Notes under the pieces: generated by a model
Seen by the model: the letters and a program-made list of their open reading frames with translations, nothing else
Databases searched by the model: none
What the model was told of the DNA's origin: nothing
Shown here: piece by piece, positions 6,259 through 55,300 of the stretch
Layout of the letters: every line of letters starts with the position of its first letter
Position numbering within the stretch: the first letter of the stretch is position 1
Source: an uncultured Christensenellaceae bacterium
GTDB taxonomy: Bacteria; Bacillota; Clostridia; Christensenellales; UMGS416
NCBI GenBank assembly: GCA_944376795.1
Contig: CALWDW010000008.1
Span: forward strand, 62,001-126,000
DNA: 64,000 nt
Direction of reading: 5' to 3'
Translations under genes and position numbers: made by a program

Positions 6259-6336
6259 GAACAGGCTCCGCCGTAACTGACGGCTAGCGTGGGGGACCAC
6301 GGGGAAGCGGAGGAGCAATACGCCGACCGTCTGGGC
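6259..6336 (+). ncRNA. ZTP riboswitch (pfl motif) aptamer
   Basis: The leader holds the conserved parts of the ZTP/ZMP riboswitch, first known as the pfl RNA motif: a P1 stem with AACTGACGG, the GGGGGACCACGGGGAAGCGG core, and the 3' GCCGACCGTCTGGGCA segment that forms the pseudoknot. It senses ZMP/ZTP, which accumulate when 10-formyl-tetrahydrofolate is short. Its usual partners are one-carbon and purine genes; here it precedes pflB, which yields formate for that pool. Boundaries are approximate. Confidence 0.85.
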
Positions 6337-6380
6337 AGCATAGAAGGGCATGGGCCTTCTGGGCTGCCCTTGTGTTTTTG
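6333..6380 (+). terminator. Expression-platform terminator of the ZTP riboswitch
   Basis: Two-part stem GGGCAGC/GCTGCCC (6333-6339 with 6363-6369) and AGAAGG/CCTTCT (6342-6347 with 6355-6360), then TTGTGTTTTT. The left arm begins inside the conserved CTGGGCA of the aptamer, so ligand binding should block the hairpin and let transcription pass: an ON switch for pflB. The mechanism is inferred from this overlap. Confidence 0.8.
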
Positions 6381-6396: not shown

Positions 6397-8628
6397 ATGG
6401 AGAGCAGCAGTTGGAAGGGATTCGTCTCCGGGAGATGGAAGCAGGAGATCGACGTACGGGACTTTATTCAGCGCAACTATACCCCCTATGAGGGGGACGA
6501 GAGCTTCCTGGAGGGTCCGACCCGCAGGACGGGACGCCTGCTGGCCAAGCTGGAGGCCCTCTTGGCCCAGGAGCGGGAGAAGGGCGGCGTACTGGACGTG
6601 GATACCGAGACCGTCAGCTCCCTGACCCACTACCGGCCGGGCTACCTGGATAAGCAGGATGAGATCATTGTGGGGATCCAGACCGACAGCCCCCTGAAGC
6701 GAGGGGTAAATCCCTTTGGCGGCATCAAGATGACCCGCAACGCCTGCCGTGCCTACGGCTACCAGCTCTCCCAGAAGGTGGAGGAGGAGTTCCAGTTCCG
6801 TACCACCCACAATGACGGCGTATTCCGCGTCTATACCGATGAGATGCGCCGCGCCCGCCACGCGGGGATCATCACCGGTCTGCCGGATGCCTATGGCCGG
6901 GGCCGGATCATTGGAGACTACCGGCGCGTGGCCCTCTATGGCGTGGACCGGCTCATTGAGGCAAAGCAGCAGGATAAGGCCCGGGTGGGCCAGGGGCCCA
7001 TGCTGGAGGATACCATCCGCCTCAGCGAGGAGCTCTACCAGCAGATCAACTTCCTAGGTAAGCTCAAGGAGATGGCCGAACTCTACGGTTATGATATCTC
7101 CCGCCCGGCGGAGAACGCCCGAGAGGCGGTACAGTGGCTGTATTTCGGCTACCTGGGGGCCATCAAGGAGCAGAACGGCGCGGCCATGAGTCTGGGCCGG
7201 ACCAGTACCTTCCTGGATATCTATCTCCAGCGGGATCTCGCCAGCGGCGCCATCACCGAGAGCGAGGCCCAGGAGCTGATGGACGACTTTGTGATGAAGC
7301 TGCGGATGGCCCGCCATCTGCGCACCCCCGAGTATAACGAGCTTTTCGGCGGGGATCCCATGTGGATCACCGAGGCGGTGGGCGGCATGGGGGAGGACGG
7401 ACGGACCTTGGTGACGCGGAATTCCTACCGAATCCTCCACACCCTCTATAACCTGAAGCCCTCCGCCGAACCCAACCTCACCGTCCTCTGGTCGGAGAAT
7501 CTCCCCGCGCCCTTCAAGCGCTTCTGCGCCAAGGTTTCCTGCGATACCGACGCCATTCAGTATGAGAACGATGACCTGATGCGTCCCCGCTATGGGGATG
7601 ATTATGCCATCGCCTGCTGTGTCTCGGCCATGAAGGTGGGCAAGCAGATGCAGTTCTTTGGCGCCCGGGCCAACCTGGCCAAGCTCCTGCTTATGAGCCT
7701 CAACGGGGGACGGGACGAGAAGAGCGGCGACCAGGTGGGACCGGTGGGTACACCCTACCAGGGGGATGTGCTGGAATATGACCGGGTGCTGGAAGCTATG
7801 GCCCCCTACCGGGAGTGGCTGTGCGGCCTCTATGTCAATACCATGAACGTCATCCATGCCATGCATGACAAGTATGCCTACGAGAAGACCCAGATGGCGC
7901 TGCACGACACCGACGTGCACCGGTTCATGGCCTTTGGCGCGGCAGGGATGAGCGTGCTGGCCGACTCTCTTTCGGCCATCCGCTACGCCACCGTGCGTCC
8001 CATCCGGGATGAGAGCGGGCTGATTATCGATTTCTCGGTGGAGGGAGAGTATCCCGCCTTTGGCAACGATGACGACCGGGTGGATTCTATTGCGGTGGAG
8101 CAGATCCGCGCCTTCTACGAGGGGCTGAAGAAGCATCCCACCTACCGGGGAGCCGAGCATACCCTCTCCATTCTCACCATCACCAGCAATGTGGTCTACG
8201 GGAAAAAGACCGGCTCTACGCCCGATGGGCGCAAGGCCGGCGAGCCCTTTGCCCCCGGCGCCAATCCCATGCACAACCGGGAGAAGAACGGCGCCCTGGC
8301 CTCTCTGAACTCGGTGGCCAAAATCCCCTACGACATCTGCCGGGATGGGATTTCCAATACCTTCTCCATCGTCCCTGACGCCCTGGGCAAGACCCCGGAG
8401 GAGCGCTATGCCAACCTGGTCAGCGTGCTGGACGGCTATTTCGGCCAGATGGCCCACCATATCAACGTCAACGTCCTCAACCGGGAGACGCTGCTGGCGG
8501 CCTATGAGCACCCCGAGGCCTATCCCAACCTGACCATCCGGGTTTCGGGCTATGCGGTGAACTTCCATAAGCTGAGCCGAGAGCAGCAGCGGGAAGTGAT
8601 CTCCCGCACCTTCCACCAGGCCATGTAG
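6397..8628 (+). CDS. pflB: Pyruvate formate-lyase
   Basis: A 743-residue glycyl-radical enzyme converting pyruvate and CoA to acetyl-CoA and formate. Seen: the adjacent active-site cysteines Cys407-Cys408 in ACCVSAMK, and the glycyl radical motif RVSGYAVNF with Gly718, 25 residues from the C terminus as in E. coli PflB. Start at ATG 6397 with AAAGGAGG 6 bases upstream; the frame extends further upstream only through the riboswitch. The double cysteine identifies true PFL rather than a diol dehydratase or choline lyase. Activated by the product of pflA, which follows after a 606-base repeat-filled spacer. Confidence 0.96.
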
Positions 8629-8642
8629 GCAGGGAAAAGGCG

Positions 8643-9179
8643 GCGCCCTTCCGCCCGAGGGGTACGAAGGGACCAACGCCCTTGACGGTCTGCGCTTGTC
8701 CTCTCCCCAAAAAGTTTTAGAAGGGTGGGGATTGAGTGAGGGAAGCCTTTCTTGAAGGCTTTCCGCGCTAGGAGAACCCTGCGCCCTTCCGCCCGAGGGG
8801 TACGAAGGGACCGACGCCCTTGACGGTCTGCGCTTGTCCTCTCCCCAAAAAGTTTTAGAAGGGTGGGGGCCAGGGGGAAAGCTTTCTCGACGGCTTTCCG
8901 CGCTAGGAGAACCCTGCGCCTTCTGCCCGAGGGGTGCGAAGGGACCAGCGCCCTTGATGGTCCACGCTTGTCCACTCCCAAAAAGTTTTAGAAGGGTGGG
9001 GATTGAGTGAGGGAAGCCTTTCTTGAAGGCTTTCCGCGCTAGAAGAACCCTGCGCCTTCCGTCCGAGGGGTGCGGAGGGACCAGCGCCCTTGATGGTCCA
9101 CGCTTGTCCCCTCCCAAAAAGTTTTAGAAGGGTGGGGGCTAGGGGGAGGGAAACCTTTTTCAAAAGGTTTCCCTCCCCC
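8643..9179 (+). repeat. Four tandem ~136-bp mosaic repeats between pflB and pflA
   Basis: Copies start at 8643, 8781, 8916 and 9052 (lengths 138, 135, 136, ~128). Each begins GCGCC(C)TTCC, contains CGAGGGGT(A/G)CG(A/G)AGGGACC and CGCCCTTGA(C/T)GGTC, then CTCCC(C)AAAAAGTTTTAGAAG, and ends with an inverted repeat such as GGAAGCCTTTC/GAAGGCTTTCC. The first halves group copies 1+2 and 3+4, while the second halves group 1+3 and 2+4. No CDS is credible here; long minus-strand frames through it are just the repeat read as protein. The whole gap 8629-9234 is filled by this block. Confidence 0.9.
9142..9179 (+). repeat. Perfect 18-bp inverted repeat ahead of pflA
   Basis: GGGGGAGGGAAACCTTTT (9142-9159), TC loop, and its exact complement (9162-9179), ending the repeat block 55 bases before pflA. 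On the plus strand it is followed by CAAAAAAG, not a T run, so it is not a standard terminator. It could be an mRNA-stability hairpin shielding the 5' side of pflA. Confidence 0.85.
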
Positions 9180-9234
9180 CAAAAAAGACCCCTCCGCGTC
9201 TTTTGCGTCAAGAAACGGGGAAGGAGGCCGTGAG

Positions 9235-9987
9235 ATGAAACATTATTGGGACGAGGATGCACCCAGCGCTGTAGGACGCATTCACTCCTTTCAATCTATG
9301 GGGGCGGTGGACGGTCCGGGGATGCGCTGTGTGCTCTTCCTCCAGGGCTGTCCGCTGCGCTGCGCCTATTGCCACAACCCGGATACCTGGGTGTATGAAG
9401 GGGGCGTGGCGACCACCGCCCAGGACGAAGCGCGGCGGATCCTGCGTTACCGACCGTATATCCGGCGGGGCGGGGTTACGGTCAGCGGGGGGGAGCCTTT
9501 GGGACAGCCGGAATTTGTGGCCGAGCTCTTTGGCCGGCTGCGGCAGGAGGGACTCCATACCGCCTTAGATACTTCGGGGGTAGGGGGGCGGGATGCCGCC
9601 GCCCAGGTGCTGGAGGAAACCGACCTGGTGCTGTGCGATATCAAGTTTCCCACCGAGGAGGGCTACCAGGCCCACACCGGCGGGTCCCTGGCCGCGGTGC
9701 TGGGCTTCCTGGAACAGGTGCGGGAACGGAGGATCCCGCTGTGGATACGCCACGTAGTGGTTCCCGGCCTCACTGACGGTGAGGCTTCCCTCCGGCAGGT
9801 GGGACGCCTGGCCCAGGCCTATCCCACCCTGGAGAAGCTGGAGCTTTTGCCCTTCCGCAAACTGTGCGTCTCCAAGTATGATGCGCTGGGGATTCCCTTT
9901 CCTTTGGAGGGGGCCCCTGAGATGGATGCAGCGGGCTTGGCCCATGCCCGAGAGCTCCTTCAGAAGGAAGGACTGCCTGTGGGATAG
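9235..9987 (+). CDS. pflA: Pyruvate formate-lyase-activating enzyme
   Basis: A 250-residue radical SAM enzyme that uses S-adenosylmethionine and a [4Fe-4S] cluster to place the glycyl radical on PflB. Seen: cluster motif C39-x3-C43-x2-C46 in GCPLRCAYCHN, the SAM-contacting VSGGEPL, and a length matching E. coli PflA (246). There is no inserted ferredoxin domain, which separates it from activases of other glycyl-radical enzymes. ATG start with GGAGG 7 bases upstream. It belongs functionally with pflB despite the long repeat spacer. Confidence 0.95.
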   Translation: MKHYWDEDAPSAVGRIHSFQSMGAVDGPGMRCVLFLQGCPLRCAYCHNPDTWVYEGGVATTAQDEARRILRYRPYIRRGGVTVSGGEPLGQPEFVAELFGRLRQEGLHTALDTSGVGGRDAAAQVLEETDLVLCDIKFPTEEGYQAHTGGSLAAVLGFLEQVRERRIPLWIRHVVVPGLTDGEASLRQVGRLAQAYPTLEKLELLPFRKLCVSKYDALGIPFPLEGAPEMDAAGLAHARELLQKEGLPVG

Positions 9988-30928: not shown

Positions 30929-31855
30929 ATGCGTCATGAACACCGTACGCTTTGGATATTGCCCGTTTTTCTATCGTTAGCTTTCGTTTTGGTCGGCTGC
31001 GCGCCAACTGCCATTTCCCCAACCCAGCCCCCTGCTTCCAGTCCTGTCACAACGGACGGAACTCCCGCGCCGGAGGCGACCCTGGCAGAGACGGCGACCC
31101 CGGCTCCGGAGGAGACGCTGGCTTCGGAGGCGACCCCGGCGGCGGAGACCACCCCGGCGCCCGAGGAAACGACGGAAGCCGCAGAGACGGCCCCGTCGGA
31201 GGTGACTCCCACCCCGGAAGAGCCTGAGGCGACCCCGGCGGCGGAGACCGACCCCACTCCAGCCCCGGCGGAGACCGCAGTTCCTGTGCCCTCCATGGAA
31301 CCGGAGAACGCCGCAGCCAACTTTAACCGGGATCAGGCGCAGAAGCTCCTGGATATTGCGGCGGAAACCGTGGCCAGTTCGGGGGTGCAGGGGTTCGCGG
31401 GAGACGTCTCCCCGTCGTTCTATTACTGCTTCATCTACCAGGTGCTCAACGAAATGTACTATGATGATTCCGAGATTGATGTCACCGAGGCCGGTGGGGG
31501 CAAGAGCTTCATTGCCCAGGATGCCATGGATTCGCTGTTTACTTGGTTCTTTGCCGAAGGGAATCCGCCGGCGCTGGCCGAGCAAAGCTATTTTACCCCC
31601 AGTACGGAAGGGGATGGCTATGATTTCCACTATTCTGACCGGGGGGATGTGACCCATCGCTTTGACATTGTGACCGTGGAGATGGCCGAGGGCAGCGCGA
31701 ACACCTATCTGCTGACTGCCGACCTGGTCAAGGTGTACTACGGCGAGGAGGGAGAGGCCGCGGCTGACGTCATAGGCCGCTATGCCATTGCGCTGGTGGA
31801 GAGCAAGACCGCGTCCATGGGCTATCTGCTGGATCGTGTGGAGGCAATTAACTAA
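30929..31855 (+). CDS. Predicted lipoprotein with Thr/Pro/Glu-rich linker
   Basis: A 308-residue exported lipoprotein of unknown function. Residues ~1-25 are a lipoprotein signal with lipobox LVGC. Residues ~27-130 are a low-complexity linker of ATPAPEET-type repeats that would span the wall. Residues ~135-308 are a compact domain (FYYCFIYQVLNEMYYDD, then VTHRFDIVTVEM) with no family I recognise. AAAGGAGG at 7 bases from the ATG, own promoter and terminator, so a single-gene unit. Confidence 0.8.
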   Translation: MRHEHRTLWILPVFLSLAFVLVGCAPTAISPTQPPASSPVTTDGTPAPEATLAETATPAPEETLASEATPAAETTPAPEETTEAAETAPSEVTPTPEEPEATPAAETDPTPAPAETAVPVPSMEPENAAANFNRDQAQKLLDIAAETVASSGVQGFAGDVSPSFYYCFIYQVLNEMYYDDSEIDVTEAGGGKSFIAQDAMDSLFTWFFAEGNPPALAEQSYFTPSTEGDGYDFHYSDRGDVTHRFDIVTVEMAEGSANTYLLTADLVKVYYGEEGEAAADVIGRYAIALVESKTASMGYLLDRVEAIN

Positions 31856-34813: not shown

Positions 34814-36188
34814 GGCGGCGCTGGGCGCTGTAGGCGGCGTGTTGGCCGACCAGTGGAAGGAATTCTTTTACTGTGATTCCCTGCCGGAGACGGTGCTGGC
34901 GGCAAAGGGGCAGAAACGGGTCTCCGGACGCTCCAGCAATACCAAGGGAAGCGACAACATCATCTCCAGCGGCTCGGTGATCGCGGTGGCCGACGGCCAG
35001 TGCATGATCATTGTGGAGCAGGGCCGGGTGGTGGAGGTCTGCGCGGAGCCCGGGGAGTTTACCTACGATGCCTCCACGGAGCCTTCGGTTTTTGCGGGGA
35101 ACCTGGGGGAGAGCATCGGCCGGGTGTTCCGTACCGTTGGCAAACGGTTCACCTTCGGCGGGGAGCCGCCCAAGGACCAGCGGGTGTATTACTTCAACAC
35201 CAAGGAGCTTCTCGGGAACAAGTACGGCACGCCTTCGCCGGTGCCCTTCCGGGTGGTGGATGCCCGGGCGGGGATCGATATGGATATCGCCATCCGCTGC
35301 TTTGGCGAGTACAGCTATCGCATCAGCAATCCGCTGCTGTTCTATACCAACGTGTGCGGCAATACGGAGACGGCGTACCTGCGCAGCGCGCTGGAGGGCC
35401 AGCTGAAGACCGAACTTCTCACGGCCCTGCAGCCGGCGTTTGCGCGGATCAGCGCCATGGGGATTCGGTACTCGGCCCTGCCGGGCCACACCACGGAAAT
35501 GGCGGAGGCGTTGAATGAGGAGCTTTCCGCTAAGTGGCGAGATTTGCGGGGGCTGGAAATCGTATCCTTTGGCGTCTCTTCGGTGAAGGCCGATGAGGCG
35601 GACGAGCAGATGATCAAGGAACTGCAGCGCAACGCGGCCTTCATAGATCCCACGCGGGCAGCGGCCCATATGGTGGCGGCCCAGGCGTCTGCAATGCAGG
35701 CGGCGGCCTCCAACCAGGGAGCGGGGCCGGCCATGGCCTTCATGGGAATGAACATGGCCCAAGGGGCCGGCGGCGCCACCGTGCAGGAGCTCTACCAGAT
35801 GGGCCGGCAGGCGCCGGAGCAGGCTCCGGGGGGCTGGGTTTGTGCCTGTGGGCAGACGGGGAACAAAGGCAATTTCTGCACGGCCTGCGGCAAGCCCAAA
35901 CCTGTGCAGAAGGAGCGCTGGACCTGTGCCTGCGGCGCGGTAAACCGGGGGAATTTCTGCACCCAGTGCGGTAAGCCTAAGCCGACGGGGGAGACCGTGG
36001 GCTGGACCTGTGCCTGCGGGGCCGTAAACAAGGGCAAGTTCTGCTCCGAATGCGGGGCCAAAAAGCCTGCGGGTGTGCCGCAGTACCGGTGCGACAAGTG
36101 CGGCTGGGAGCCTGCGGATCCGACCCATCCGCCGAAGTTCTGCCCGGAGTGTGGGGATCCTTTTGACGATGGAGACCTGCAGGGCTAG
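34800..36188 (+). CDS. SPFH domain protein with four C-terminal zinc ribbons
   Basis: A 462-residue protein. Residues ~20-270 resemble the bacterial SPFH/virion-core group (like B. subtilis YdjI), which gathers at membranes during envelope stress. Residues ~270-335 are Ala/Met/Gln-rich. The tail holds four zinc ribbons: three near-identical CxC-x9-CxxC units (WVCACGQ, WTCACGAVNR, WTCACGAVNK) and one CxxC-x13-CxxC unit (YRCDKCGW ... FCPECGD). The W-C-x-C-G-x-x-N pattern recalls RanBP2-type fingers. No signal peptide or clear helix; membrane contact may come through the overlapping small protein. Confidence 0.82.
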   Translation: MGLIKAALGAVGGVLADQWKEFFYCDSLPETVLAAKGQKRVSGRSSNTKGSDNIISSGSVIAVADGQCMIIVEQGRVVEVCAEPGEFTYDASTEPSVFAGNLGESIGRVFRTVGKRFTFGGEPPKDQRVYYFNTKELLGNKYGTPSPVPFRVVDARAGIDMDIAIRCFGEYSYRISNPLLFYTNVCGNTETAYLRSALEGQLKTELLTALQPAFARISAMGIRYSALPGHTTEMAEALNEELSAKWRDLRGLEIVSFGVSSVKADEADEQMIKELQRNAAFIDPTRAAAHMVAAQASAMQAAASNQGAGPAMAFMGMNMAQGAGGATVQELYQMGRQAPEQAPGGWVCACGQTGNKGNFCTACGKPKPVQKERWTCACGAVNRGNFCTQCGKPKPTGETVGWTCACGAVNKGKFCSECGAKKPAGVPQYRCDKCGWEPADPTHPPKFCPECGDPFDDGDLQG

Positions 36189-45920: not shown

Positions 45921-47612
45921 TTAATCGGTACCGCCGTCCTCCTCAGGCGCAGGGGTGGATACAGGCGGCGGCGTTTCCACGGGCGCCGGGGTTTCCACGG
46001 GCTTGGGGGTCGGAGTCTCCACGGGCTTGGGGGTGGCGGTCTCTACGGGCTTAGGCGTGGGTGTCGGGGTCTCCACCGGCTTGGGAGTAGCGGTTTCCAC
46101 CGGCTTAGGTGTAGCGGTGGGCGTCGGAGCAGGTGTGGGTGTCTCGCTGGGGTTGCCATCCTTGGGATTATAGTATACCTTGGCCTGGATCTCCGGATAA
46201 TAGTCGCTGAAGAGCTTAATCCGGTCGATCTCGTTGCCGTCGGCGTCATAGATCACCTTATATGTGGTGCACTTAATCCCGTTACGGGCGTTGACCTTCT
46301 TGGTAGTGCCCCGCGGGACCGAACTGTCGGCTACATAGAGCACGCCGCTTTTGGGCTTTATGGTGGAGTTGGTGATGACATCCATGCCAATGGTCTGCCC
46401 ATTGGGAAGGGCCTTGCCATAGATCTCGGCGTAGACCTCCTGGCCGCTGGTGTACATGACGATTACAATGGGGGCGTCGCTGGAATTCTTGAACTTGAAG
46501 TCCTTATTGCCATAGTCCACGGTGGCATCGCGCCCGCGCTTGAGGTAGCTGAGCTCGTAAGAGTGGCGGTAGCGCTCGGTGACTTCCAGATCGGCGCGCA
46601 CCACAGCGTTGAACAGGGTGCCCGAGACCTGGCAGATGCCGCCGCCCAATCCCTGCTCCAGACGGTCGCCGCCTACGATGACGCCGGCTTCTTTATAGCC
46701 GGCGGCGGCAGTGCGCTCGCCCACCACGCCGTTGAAGGAGAATTCCTCCCCGGGCTGGAGCACCGTGCCCGTGATGGAGGCGCAGGCCAGCTTGATGTTA
46801 TGGGTGCGGTTGGAATCCTTGGTGAAGGTGGTGCTGAACTTGCTCACGCGCTCCAGCTGGGTTGCGCGGAGAGATTCGGCGGTGACAGTGGGCTGGGTCT
46901 CAACGAAAGGAACCGTAATGGGGGTTTCCAGGCTCATGGTATTCAGCGCGGAGGAGACCGCCGTCCACAGGGCGTCAGTATTCACGGCCTTTCCCACCAC
47001 TTCGGGGGTGATGGTAAACCACTCTTCCACGGGCTTGCTGGTATCGATCTCGTCGACGCTGGTCATGGTGGCATCCTGTGCCTCTACCGTAAAGGAGGCG
47101 GCCATGGTCTCCAGGTCGGACTTCAGTCCCATCAGATTCTCCAGGGTAACGGTCTGGTGAATTTCGGCAGTGTCCCCCTCCGGAGCGTCCAAGGCCTGCT
47201 GCATGGCAGACTCCACGTCGAATTTCGGGGTATAGTTGGCCAGGTTTACGGTGCGAATTTCATCCCCGAAGGAGAGCGTGAGCTTCATTGTCTGGATAGC
47301 GGCATTATTGGCCTCATCCAAAGCGGTGCGGGCCTCCTCCACCGTCTTACCGGAAAGATCCACGCCGTCGATGACGGTGCCCTCCCGGAAGATGCCTGCT
47401 TCGGGCTCCAGTGTGGGCTCCGGGGTCAGCTCCGCCCCCAGCGTGGGAGAGGGAGAGGGGAAAGCGCTGGGGCCGGTCAGGGATTGACGCAGGAAAATGG
47501 CGCCCCCCACGGCCACCAGGGCCAGTACAACGGCCATGCTCAGGAAAATCCCCGGCTTCATGCCCAGGATGGTGTTGCTTCTGCGTGCGTGGCGATTGTT
47601 CTTCTTTGCCAT
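45921..47612 (-). CDS. Membrane-anchored VanW family protein (first copy)
   Basis: A 563-residue relative of the next gene. One N-terminal helix (~20-42), a Pro/Thr-rich spacer, peptidoglycan-binding-4-like region, VanW domain (~270-400; LQPGEEFSFN, GLGGGICQVSG), a G5-like beta segment (VPRGTTKKVNARNG), and a ~75-residue C-terminal tail of T-P-K-P-V-E-T repeats. It lies 21 bases after rex, so transcription is likely shared. The tail is probably disordered and wall-spanning. Confidence 0.87.
   Translation of the reverse strand: MAKKNNRHARRSNTILGMKPGIFLSMAVVLALVAVGGAIFLRQSLTGPSAFPSPSPTLGAELTPEPTLEPEAGIFREGTVIDGVDLSGKTVEEARTALDEANNAAIQTMKLTLSFGDEIRTVNLANYTPKFDVESAMQQALDAPEGDTAEIHQTVTLENLMGLKSDLETMAASFTVEAQDATMTSVDEIDTSKPVEEWFTITPEVVGKAVNTDALWTAVSSALNTMSLETPITVPFVETQPTVTAESLRATQLERVSKFSTTFTKDSNRTHNIKLACASITGTVLQPGEEFSFNGVVGERTAAAGYKEAGVIVGGDRLEQGLGGGICQVSGTLFNAVVRADLEVTERYRHSYELSYLKRGRDATVDYGNKDFKFKNSSDAPIVIVMYTSGQEVYAEIYGKALPNGQTIGMDVITNSTIKPKSGVLYVADSSVPRGTTKKVNARNGIKCTTYKVIYDADGNEIDRIKLFSDYYPEIQAKVYYNPKDGNPSETPTPAPTPTATPKPVETATPKPVETPTPTPKPVETATPKPVETPTPKPVETPAPVETPPPVSTPAPEEDGGTD
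45955..46135 (-). repeat. In-frame minisatellite coding the TPKPVET tail
   Basis: About nine imperfect copies of a 21- to 33-base unit (minus-strand coding of ACCCCCAAGCCCGT-like sequence) at the end of the first vanW gene. Such arrays change length by slippage, so the tail is probably variable between strains. Confidence 0.8.
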
Positions 47613-55211: not shown

Positions 55212-55300
55212 CCTCTCCCCAAAAAGTTTTCGAAGAGAGGGGATCGAGAAGGGAAAACTTGCGCAAACATTTTCCTCCCCACGCGTGCCTCTTTCCCGTG
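55212..55300 (+). repeat. Single diverged copy of the pfl-spacer repeat
   Basis: CCTCTCCCCAAAAAGTTTT then CGAAGAGAGGGG (55212-55242) matches the CTCTCCCCAAAAAGTTTT core of the repeats at 8643-9179, followed by an imperfect hairpin (GGGAAAAC ... TTTTCCTCCCC). No gene is seen in 55039-55332. Confidence 0.65.

Follow-up and report, generated by a model that had tools for sequence, protein, structure and literature searches.

A tandem array in the pflB-pflA spacer of an uncultured Christensenellaceae bacterium carries modules of a dispersed palindromic repeat family

The spacer between pflB and pflA in the 64,000-nucleotide stretch of DNA analysed here (the window) holds four copies of a repeat from a dispersed family that conserves its palindrome and lies mostly at the 3' ends of genes, and the variants of the four copies are distributed in a pattern that implies exchange between them. 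The array might have arisen by local amplification of a lineage-specific REP/BIME-like repeat and might serve as the 3' part of the pflB mRNA, either as a barrier to decay or as a substrate of RNase III, thereby keeping PflB above PflA. We favor this reading tentatively, at slightly under an even chance, and what we infer in it is the transcription of the array, its processing, and its stoichiometric effect. A neutral repeat is a close rival, which we regard as nearly as likely. The sequence family is new, but the kind of element, an intergenic hairpin repeat resembling REP/BIME, is already known and does not constitute a new mechanism.

The spacer is 606 nt long (8629-9234) and is mostly occupied by four direct tandem units of 138, 134, 136, and about 131 bp (Table 1). 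TRF reported them as a single array (8647-9137, period 136, 3.6 copies) with a score of 770, the highest in the window, and this result together with the unit alignment bears out a preliminary description of the sequence, in which four copies of about 136 bp had been seen between the two genes. All units follow one plan: a first half of about 58 bp termed P, then 25-26 bp of core sequence that is invariant across all four, and a hairpin-bearing tail. The start of pflB is a choice made by codon score. A coding repeat can be rejected, since not every unit length (138/134/136) is divisible by three. A known RNA family was likewise rejected for the array, as an Rfam scan of the spacer gave nothing above the gathering score and sub-threshold matches only, mostly to miRNA precursors. 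The window also contains short-period tandem repeats at 31067-31166 and 45964-46118 (18/36 bp and 24/30/54 bp) and an 84-bp tandem repeat with 2.3 copies at 35862-36055, which by eye resembles a Cys-rich coding repeat.

Table 1. Features of the pfl locus and of the repeat family, in window coordinates
Feature	Position	Strand	Evidence
ZMP/ZTP riboswitch (pfl motif), upstream of pflB	6263..6343	+	Rfam RF01750, 60.4 bits vs gathering 39
pflB, formate C-acetyltransferase	6397..8628	+	NCBIfam TIGR01255 equivalog, 1160 bits vs cut-off 994
Unit 1: module P (about 8647-8704) and module B core with derived tail (about 8705-8784)	8647..8784	+	
Unit 2: module P and module B core, intermediate tail	8785..8918	+	
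Unit 3: module P and module B core, derived tail as in unit 1 (52/53 positions)	8919..9054	+	
Unit 4: module P and full family-type module B	9055..9185	+	B match C8:71109-71178 = window 9109-9178, E 6.4e-16
Main hairpin of the family at the end of unit 4: perfect 17-bp stem, 4-nt loop	9142..9179	+	Covariation across 93 copies
pflA, pyruvate formate-lyase-activating enzyme	9235..9987	+	NCBIfam TIGR02493 equivalog, 259.9 bits vs 231.75
Lone, diverged copy of module B in a convergent intergenic gap, with a gene for a LUD-domain protein on one side	55213..55282	+	

The variants cross between the two halves of the unit, as the preliminary description had stated, and all the variants that it quoted were found. 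The first half carries GGGGTACG and TTGACGGTC in units 1 and 2 and GGGGTGCG and TTGATGGTC in units 3 and 4; in the second half, ATTGAGTGAGGGAAGCC is common to units 1 and 3, and GGGGGC[CT]AGGGGG to units 2 and 4. Among the ten gap-free columns that divide the units two against two, five group 1 with 2 and 3 with 4 (columns 18-46), five group 1 with 3 and 2 with 4 (columns 85-108), and none groups 1 with 4 and 2 with 3. The grouping therefore switches a single time along the unit, across the invariant core (permutation p = 0.008). The P halves are identical at 57/58 positions between units 1 and 2 and at 54/58 between units 3 and 4. The tails of units 1 and 3 agree at 52/53 positions, those of 1 and 2 at 41/50, and those of 2 and 4 at only 27/44 over the whole tail, the last pair resembling each other only in a stretch of about 12 bp and at two further sites. 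All four pairings of the two first-half types with the two tail types occur. Unless the sites are homoplastic, such a four-gamete pattern implies that units have exchanged sequence. When two related units of a second array on contig C21 were aligned as an outgroup, units 3 and 4 agreed with it at those P sites that could be aligned best, and in units 2 and 4 the start of the tail resembled it; therefore, only copy 1 need be recombinant. A single exchange that produced copy 1, joined within the invariant core of about 25 bp, would be enough. Of the earlier proposal of a duplicated dimer followed by gene conversion, recombination among the units stands, whereas the specific dimer history becomes one possible history among others and is not required.

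The preliminary description had also proposed a search for other genomic copies, and dozens of dispersed copies were found for the second half of the unit. A query with one unit gave 48 matches in the 2.68-Mb genome and a larger query 59, with some palindromes counted on both strands, and the 20-mer AAGTTTTAGAANGGTGGGGG has 80 exact occurrences genome-wide, compared with 0 for its reversed control. Profile searches over 421,716 bases, comprising the stretches around the matches and contig C8, which holds the window, counted 103 B, 49 C, 38 D, 27 A, and 4 P modules. Elsewhere in the genome the modules form ordered composites, C-A-B or C-D-A-B, of about 210-350 bp, frequently as tandem repeats of about 240 bp. 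Modules C and B flank a third palindrome and are in part inverted versions of one another: at the same places, B matches one strand and C the opposite one. Many contigs of this genome begin or end in composites (for example C10, C37, C43, C44, and C45); hence the assembly was probably interrupted by the family, whose real copy number may be higher. This coincidence with contig ends makes the repeats relevant to assembling the genome.

Module P was restricted to the pfl array in the profile search and matched no other genomic site strongly, in a search that was not exhaustive and left pfl copies 1 and 2 themselves unlisted. By BLAST, unit 4 with its P half included matches the tandem array on C21 (L129, G000 C21, 2747-3140; 82% over 118 bp), in which a B'/B dimer occurs twice upstream of an uxuA-like gene; among the sequences found, this array is the one closest to the pfl array. 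The first half of the unit thus appears essentially unique to the pfl array, with a distant relative in the C21 array. The scarcity of strong P matches in that non-exhaustive search could be taken to favor a chance local duplication without any family, yet we discard this explanation altogether in view of the dozens of dispersed second-half copies and the related C21 array: the pfl array is not an isolated duplication because its second half belongs to the dispersed family.

The family seems narrowly distributed. AAGTTTTAGAANGGTGGGGG is present in one of eight genomes of the taxonomic family and in one of 396 of the order, in each case the genome of the window itself, and none of the 395 further genomes sampled in the order yielded the palindromic repeats of the second half. 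Searches of relatives gave no match in seven other genomes of the same taxonomic family and one weak 44-bp match in one of 23 genomes of the same order. A phage origin was considered and rejected: the two viral-contig matches of the 20-mer were the sole indication, and they are taken as chance because they fall within coding sequence on two phage contigs that are related to each other, with no match to modules A, B, C, D, or P. In the literature, within the partial coverage available to us, the core sequence was found in no paper, and no report was found of REPINs in Firmicutes or of REP-like repeats in Clostridiales.

The palindrome of module B appears to have been maintained. Of the 103 copies, 96 are near-complete; pairs were counted in the 93 distinct ones among these, and 96.5% of the cells of the 17-pair hairpin are paired, compared with 95.3 (sd 0.1) in shuffles; sliding the strands against each other lowers the pairing to 82.1% or less. 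Changes on both sides of a pair are found in 17 cells versus 3.7 (sd 1.6) in shuffles, none of 500 of which reaches 17, and in 5 pairs versus 1.6. This excess of two-sided substitutions supports a maintained palindrome, compatible with either RNA or DNA. At the level of DNA, the palindromes might be putative duplex or cruciform sites for gyrase or a nucleoid protein, as the BIMEs of E. coli have been described. The conserved palindrome and the placement between convergent genes would both suit such a role, but covariation does not distinguish a palindrome in RNA from one in DNA, and we consider a DNA-level element very improbable.

Folded as RNA, the whole spacer has a z-score of -3.37, with 0 of 20 shuffles as good, and units 1 to 4 have z-scores of -1.84, +0.68, -1.74, and -4.44, respectively. 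The earlier suggestion that each unit can fold thus holds strongly for unit 4 and modestly for units 1 and 3, but not for unit 2, which folds no better than its shuffles. The scan for intrinsic terminators (GC stem plus T-tract) found none on either strand of the spacer, a count that is not unusual when compared with shuffled versions of the region (mean 1.6, sd 1.4), and a simple scan of the spacer revealed no promoter-like site. Directly 3' of the stem of unit 4, the plus strand reads CAAAAAAG, without a T-tract.

The placement of the family was tabulated for 65 sites against genes called by a codon-usage script, which are predictions. Twenty-nine sites lie at the edge of a stretch or contig, 21 between convergent genes, 11 between co-directional genes, three between divergent genes, and one inside a low-scoring ORF, so that 64 of the 65 are outside called genes. 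With the edge sites and the in-ORF site excluded, 21 of 35 sites are convergent, compared with 22 of 165 neighboring gene pairs on C8 (p 3e-8) and 16 of 76 C8 gaps longer than 150 nt (p 9e-5), and 32 of 35 border the 3' end of a gene, compared with 54 of 76 C8 gaps (p 0.026); this C8 background itself holds five tabulated sites, and the other stretches were chosen for holding the element. At the edges, where a site has a single called neighbor, 23 of 29 sites lie on the 3' side of that gene. Terminator-like sites face the adjacent gene end in many composites (38 of 77 gene ends). The pfl array belongs to the minority co-directional class and, like the C21 array, is without detected C, D, and A modules or a terminator-like site. 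Pfam assignments of 20 flanking proteins were functionally mixed, including permeases, a histidine kinase, IspD, an aminotransferase, and a lactate/malate dehydrogenase, and do not sustain the earlier idea that the repeat always lies 3' of highly expressed genes.

Such mixed neighbors are also what a selfish or neutral repeat would have, one that inserted into a tolerant gap, was amplified by unequal exchange, and persists because it does little harm; its bias toward 3' ends would then reflect selection against insertion into genes and promoters. This explanation, the close rival named above, accounts for the array by tandem amplification and exchange, and agrees with the presence of the family in one of 396 genomes of the order and with the many copies at contig ends and in tandems of about 240 bp. 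It explains less readily the terminator-like sites facing so many gene ends and the pairing kept by two-sided changes, although transposition intermediates could also select for pairing.

Among relatives, the gap between pflB and pflA has a median of 13 nt in the 42 measured, most being a few nucleotides. These 42 spacers came from 80 PflA loci; the other 38 lacked either an identified upstream pflB or a resolved start codon and were left out, and in at least six of them (L042, L045, L062, L067, L072, and L106) the pflB match ends within 195 nt upstream of, or slightly overlaps, the pflA match. A long, repeat-filled spacer occurs only in the present genome among the measured loci, and the long spacers of relatives gave no significant match to the pfl array (best E 0.035, 14 bp). 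Of the 14 spacers of 60-650 nt in relatives, 12 fold with z < -2, a figure for pflB-pflA gaps alone, and predicted structure in this particular gap recurs among relatives. Some of these spacers resemble terminators or other repeats. Locus L041 (Candidatus Agathobaculum) has an unrelated structured spacer of 602 nt with inverted repeats of its own (z -8.3).

Hairpins followed by T-runs can be seen by eye in other pflB-pflA spacers (for example L064, L080, L082, and L110), and together with the 17-bp stem at 9142-9179 they could point to a transcriptional attenuator, in which one or more strong hairpins end a fraction of the transcripts and lower pflA transcription. No stem of the present spacer is followed by a T-tract on either strand, the main stem running into CAAAAAAG, and attenuation here is improbable in our view.

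In the mRNA-processing reading that we favor, pflB and pflA would be co-transcribed from upstream of the ZTP riboswitch, and the REP/BIME-like repeat, amplified locally in tandem 3' of pflB, would become the 3' part of the pflB mRNA. The array has no T-tract terminator and would therefore allow read-through into pflA. Its hairpins, of which that at 9142-9179 is the strongest, might stall 3'-5' exonucleases, be cut by RNase III, or both; the pflB message would then outlive and separate from the pflA message, and PflB would exceed PflA. REP sequences of E. coli reportedly stabilize upstream messages such as malE. Against this reading, the sites of the family adjoin many kinds of genes and not specially those needing unequal levels, unit 2 folds no better than its shuffles, and the long spacer filled with repeats is peculiar to this genome among the loci measured. 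An unlikely extension is that the array is a tunable stoichiometry device: a composite 3'-end repeat, evolved in a lineage in which no RAYT was found, would have been amplified in the pfl operon, and unequal exchange through the invariant core would alter the copy number and thereby the PflB:PflA ratio, in convergence with the RNase III-processed junction of E. coli. If copy number sets this ratio, the array would offer a simple and evolvable tuning of a fermentation switch; if it does not, the array documents the spread and recombination of such repeats. The locus is a natural case of a REP/BIME-like element between an enzyme and its activator, and the family is a clear example, from a genome of clostridial type, of such repeats without a detectable RAYT.

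Bacterial interspersed mosaic elements (BIME/REP) of enterobacteria are dispersed, extragenic, and palindromic; they are ordered mosaics of motifs, form tandem arrays, and lie 3' of genes and inside operons. The present family is likewise dispersed, extragenic, palindromic, and mosaic, with modules A/B/C/D in a repeated order, a resemblance of class and not homology; it differs in its C-(D)-A-B composites of about 210-350 bp and in a pfl array that has only P and B. The Y1 transposase profile PF01797 had no match in this 95%-complete genome, whereas five of 14 control genomes were positive, and on this result mobilization by a RAYT was rejected; since no RAYT was found, the family should not be called REPIN. 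REPINs are described as paired inverted REPs tied to RAYTs, with tandem clusters of near-identical units (PMC3116915). The C and B modules, partly inverted copies around a third palindrome, and the tandem clusters recall that description, but the pfl array, without C and A, is not an inverted pair. Repeats of the ERIC, NEMIS, Efa, Ype, and Bor type are intergenic, lie near the 3' ends of coding sequences, have stem-loops favoring convergent gaps, and have been proposed to stabilize mRNA or to be cleaved by RNase (PMC1590033, PMC10969869). They belong to other hosts, and the likeness concerns placement and proposed role.

A further comparison is the same gene junction in E. coli. That junction has a terminator and a pflA promoter, neither of which appeared in our spacer on a simple scan, and no repeat family is described there (PMC5371410). 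In E. coli, RNase III cuts between pflB and pflA, the half-life of pflB mRNA is about 5.5 min with RNase III versus about 3.5 min in the rnc mutant, and the authors propose that cleavage leaves stabilizing hairpins 3' of pflB (PMC5371410). Both junctions share a structured spacer, and cleavage at that of E. coli stabilizes the pflB mRNA; by analogy with this precedent, a role of the pfl array in mRNA processing is plausible.
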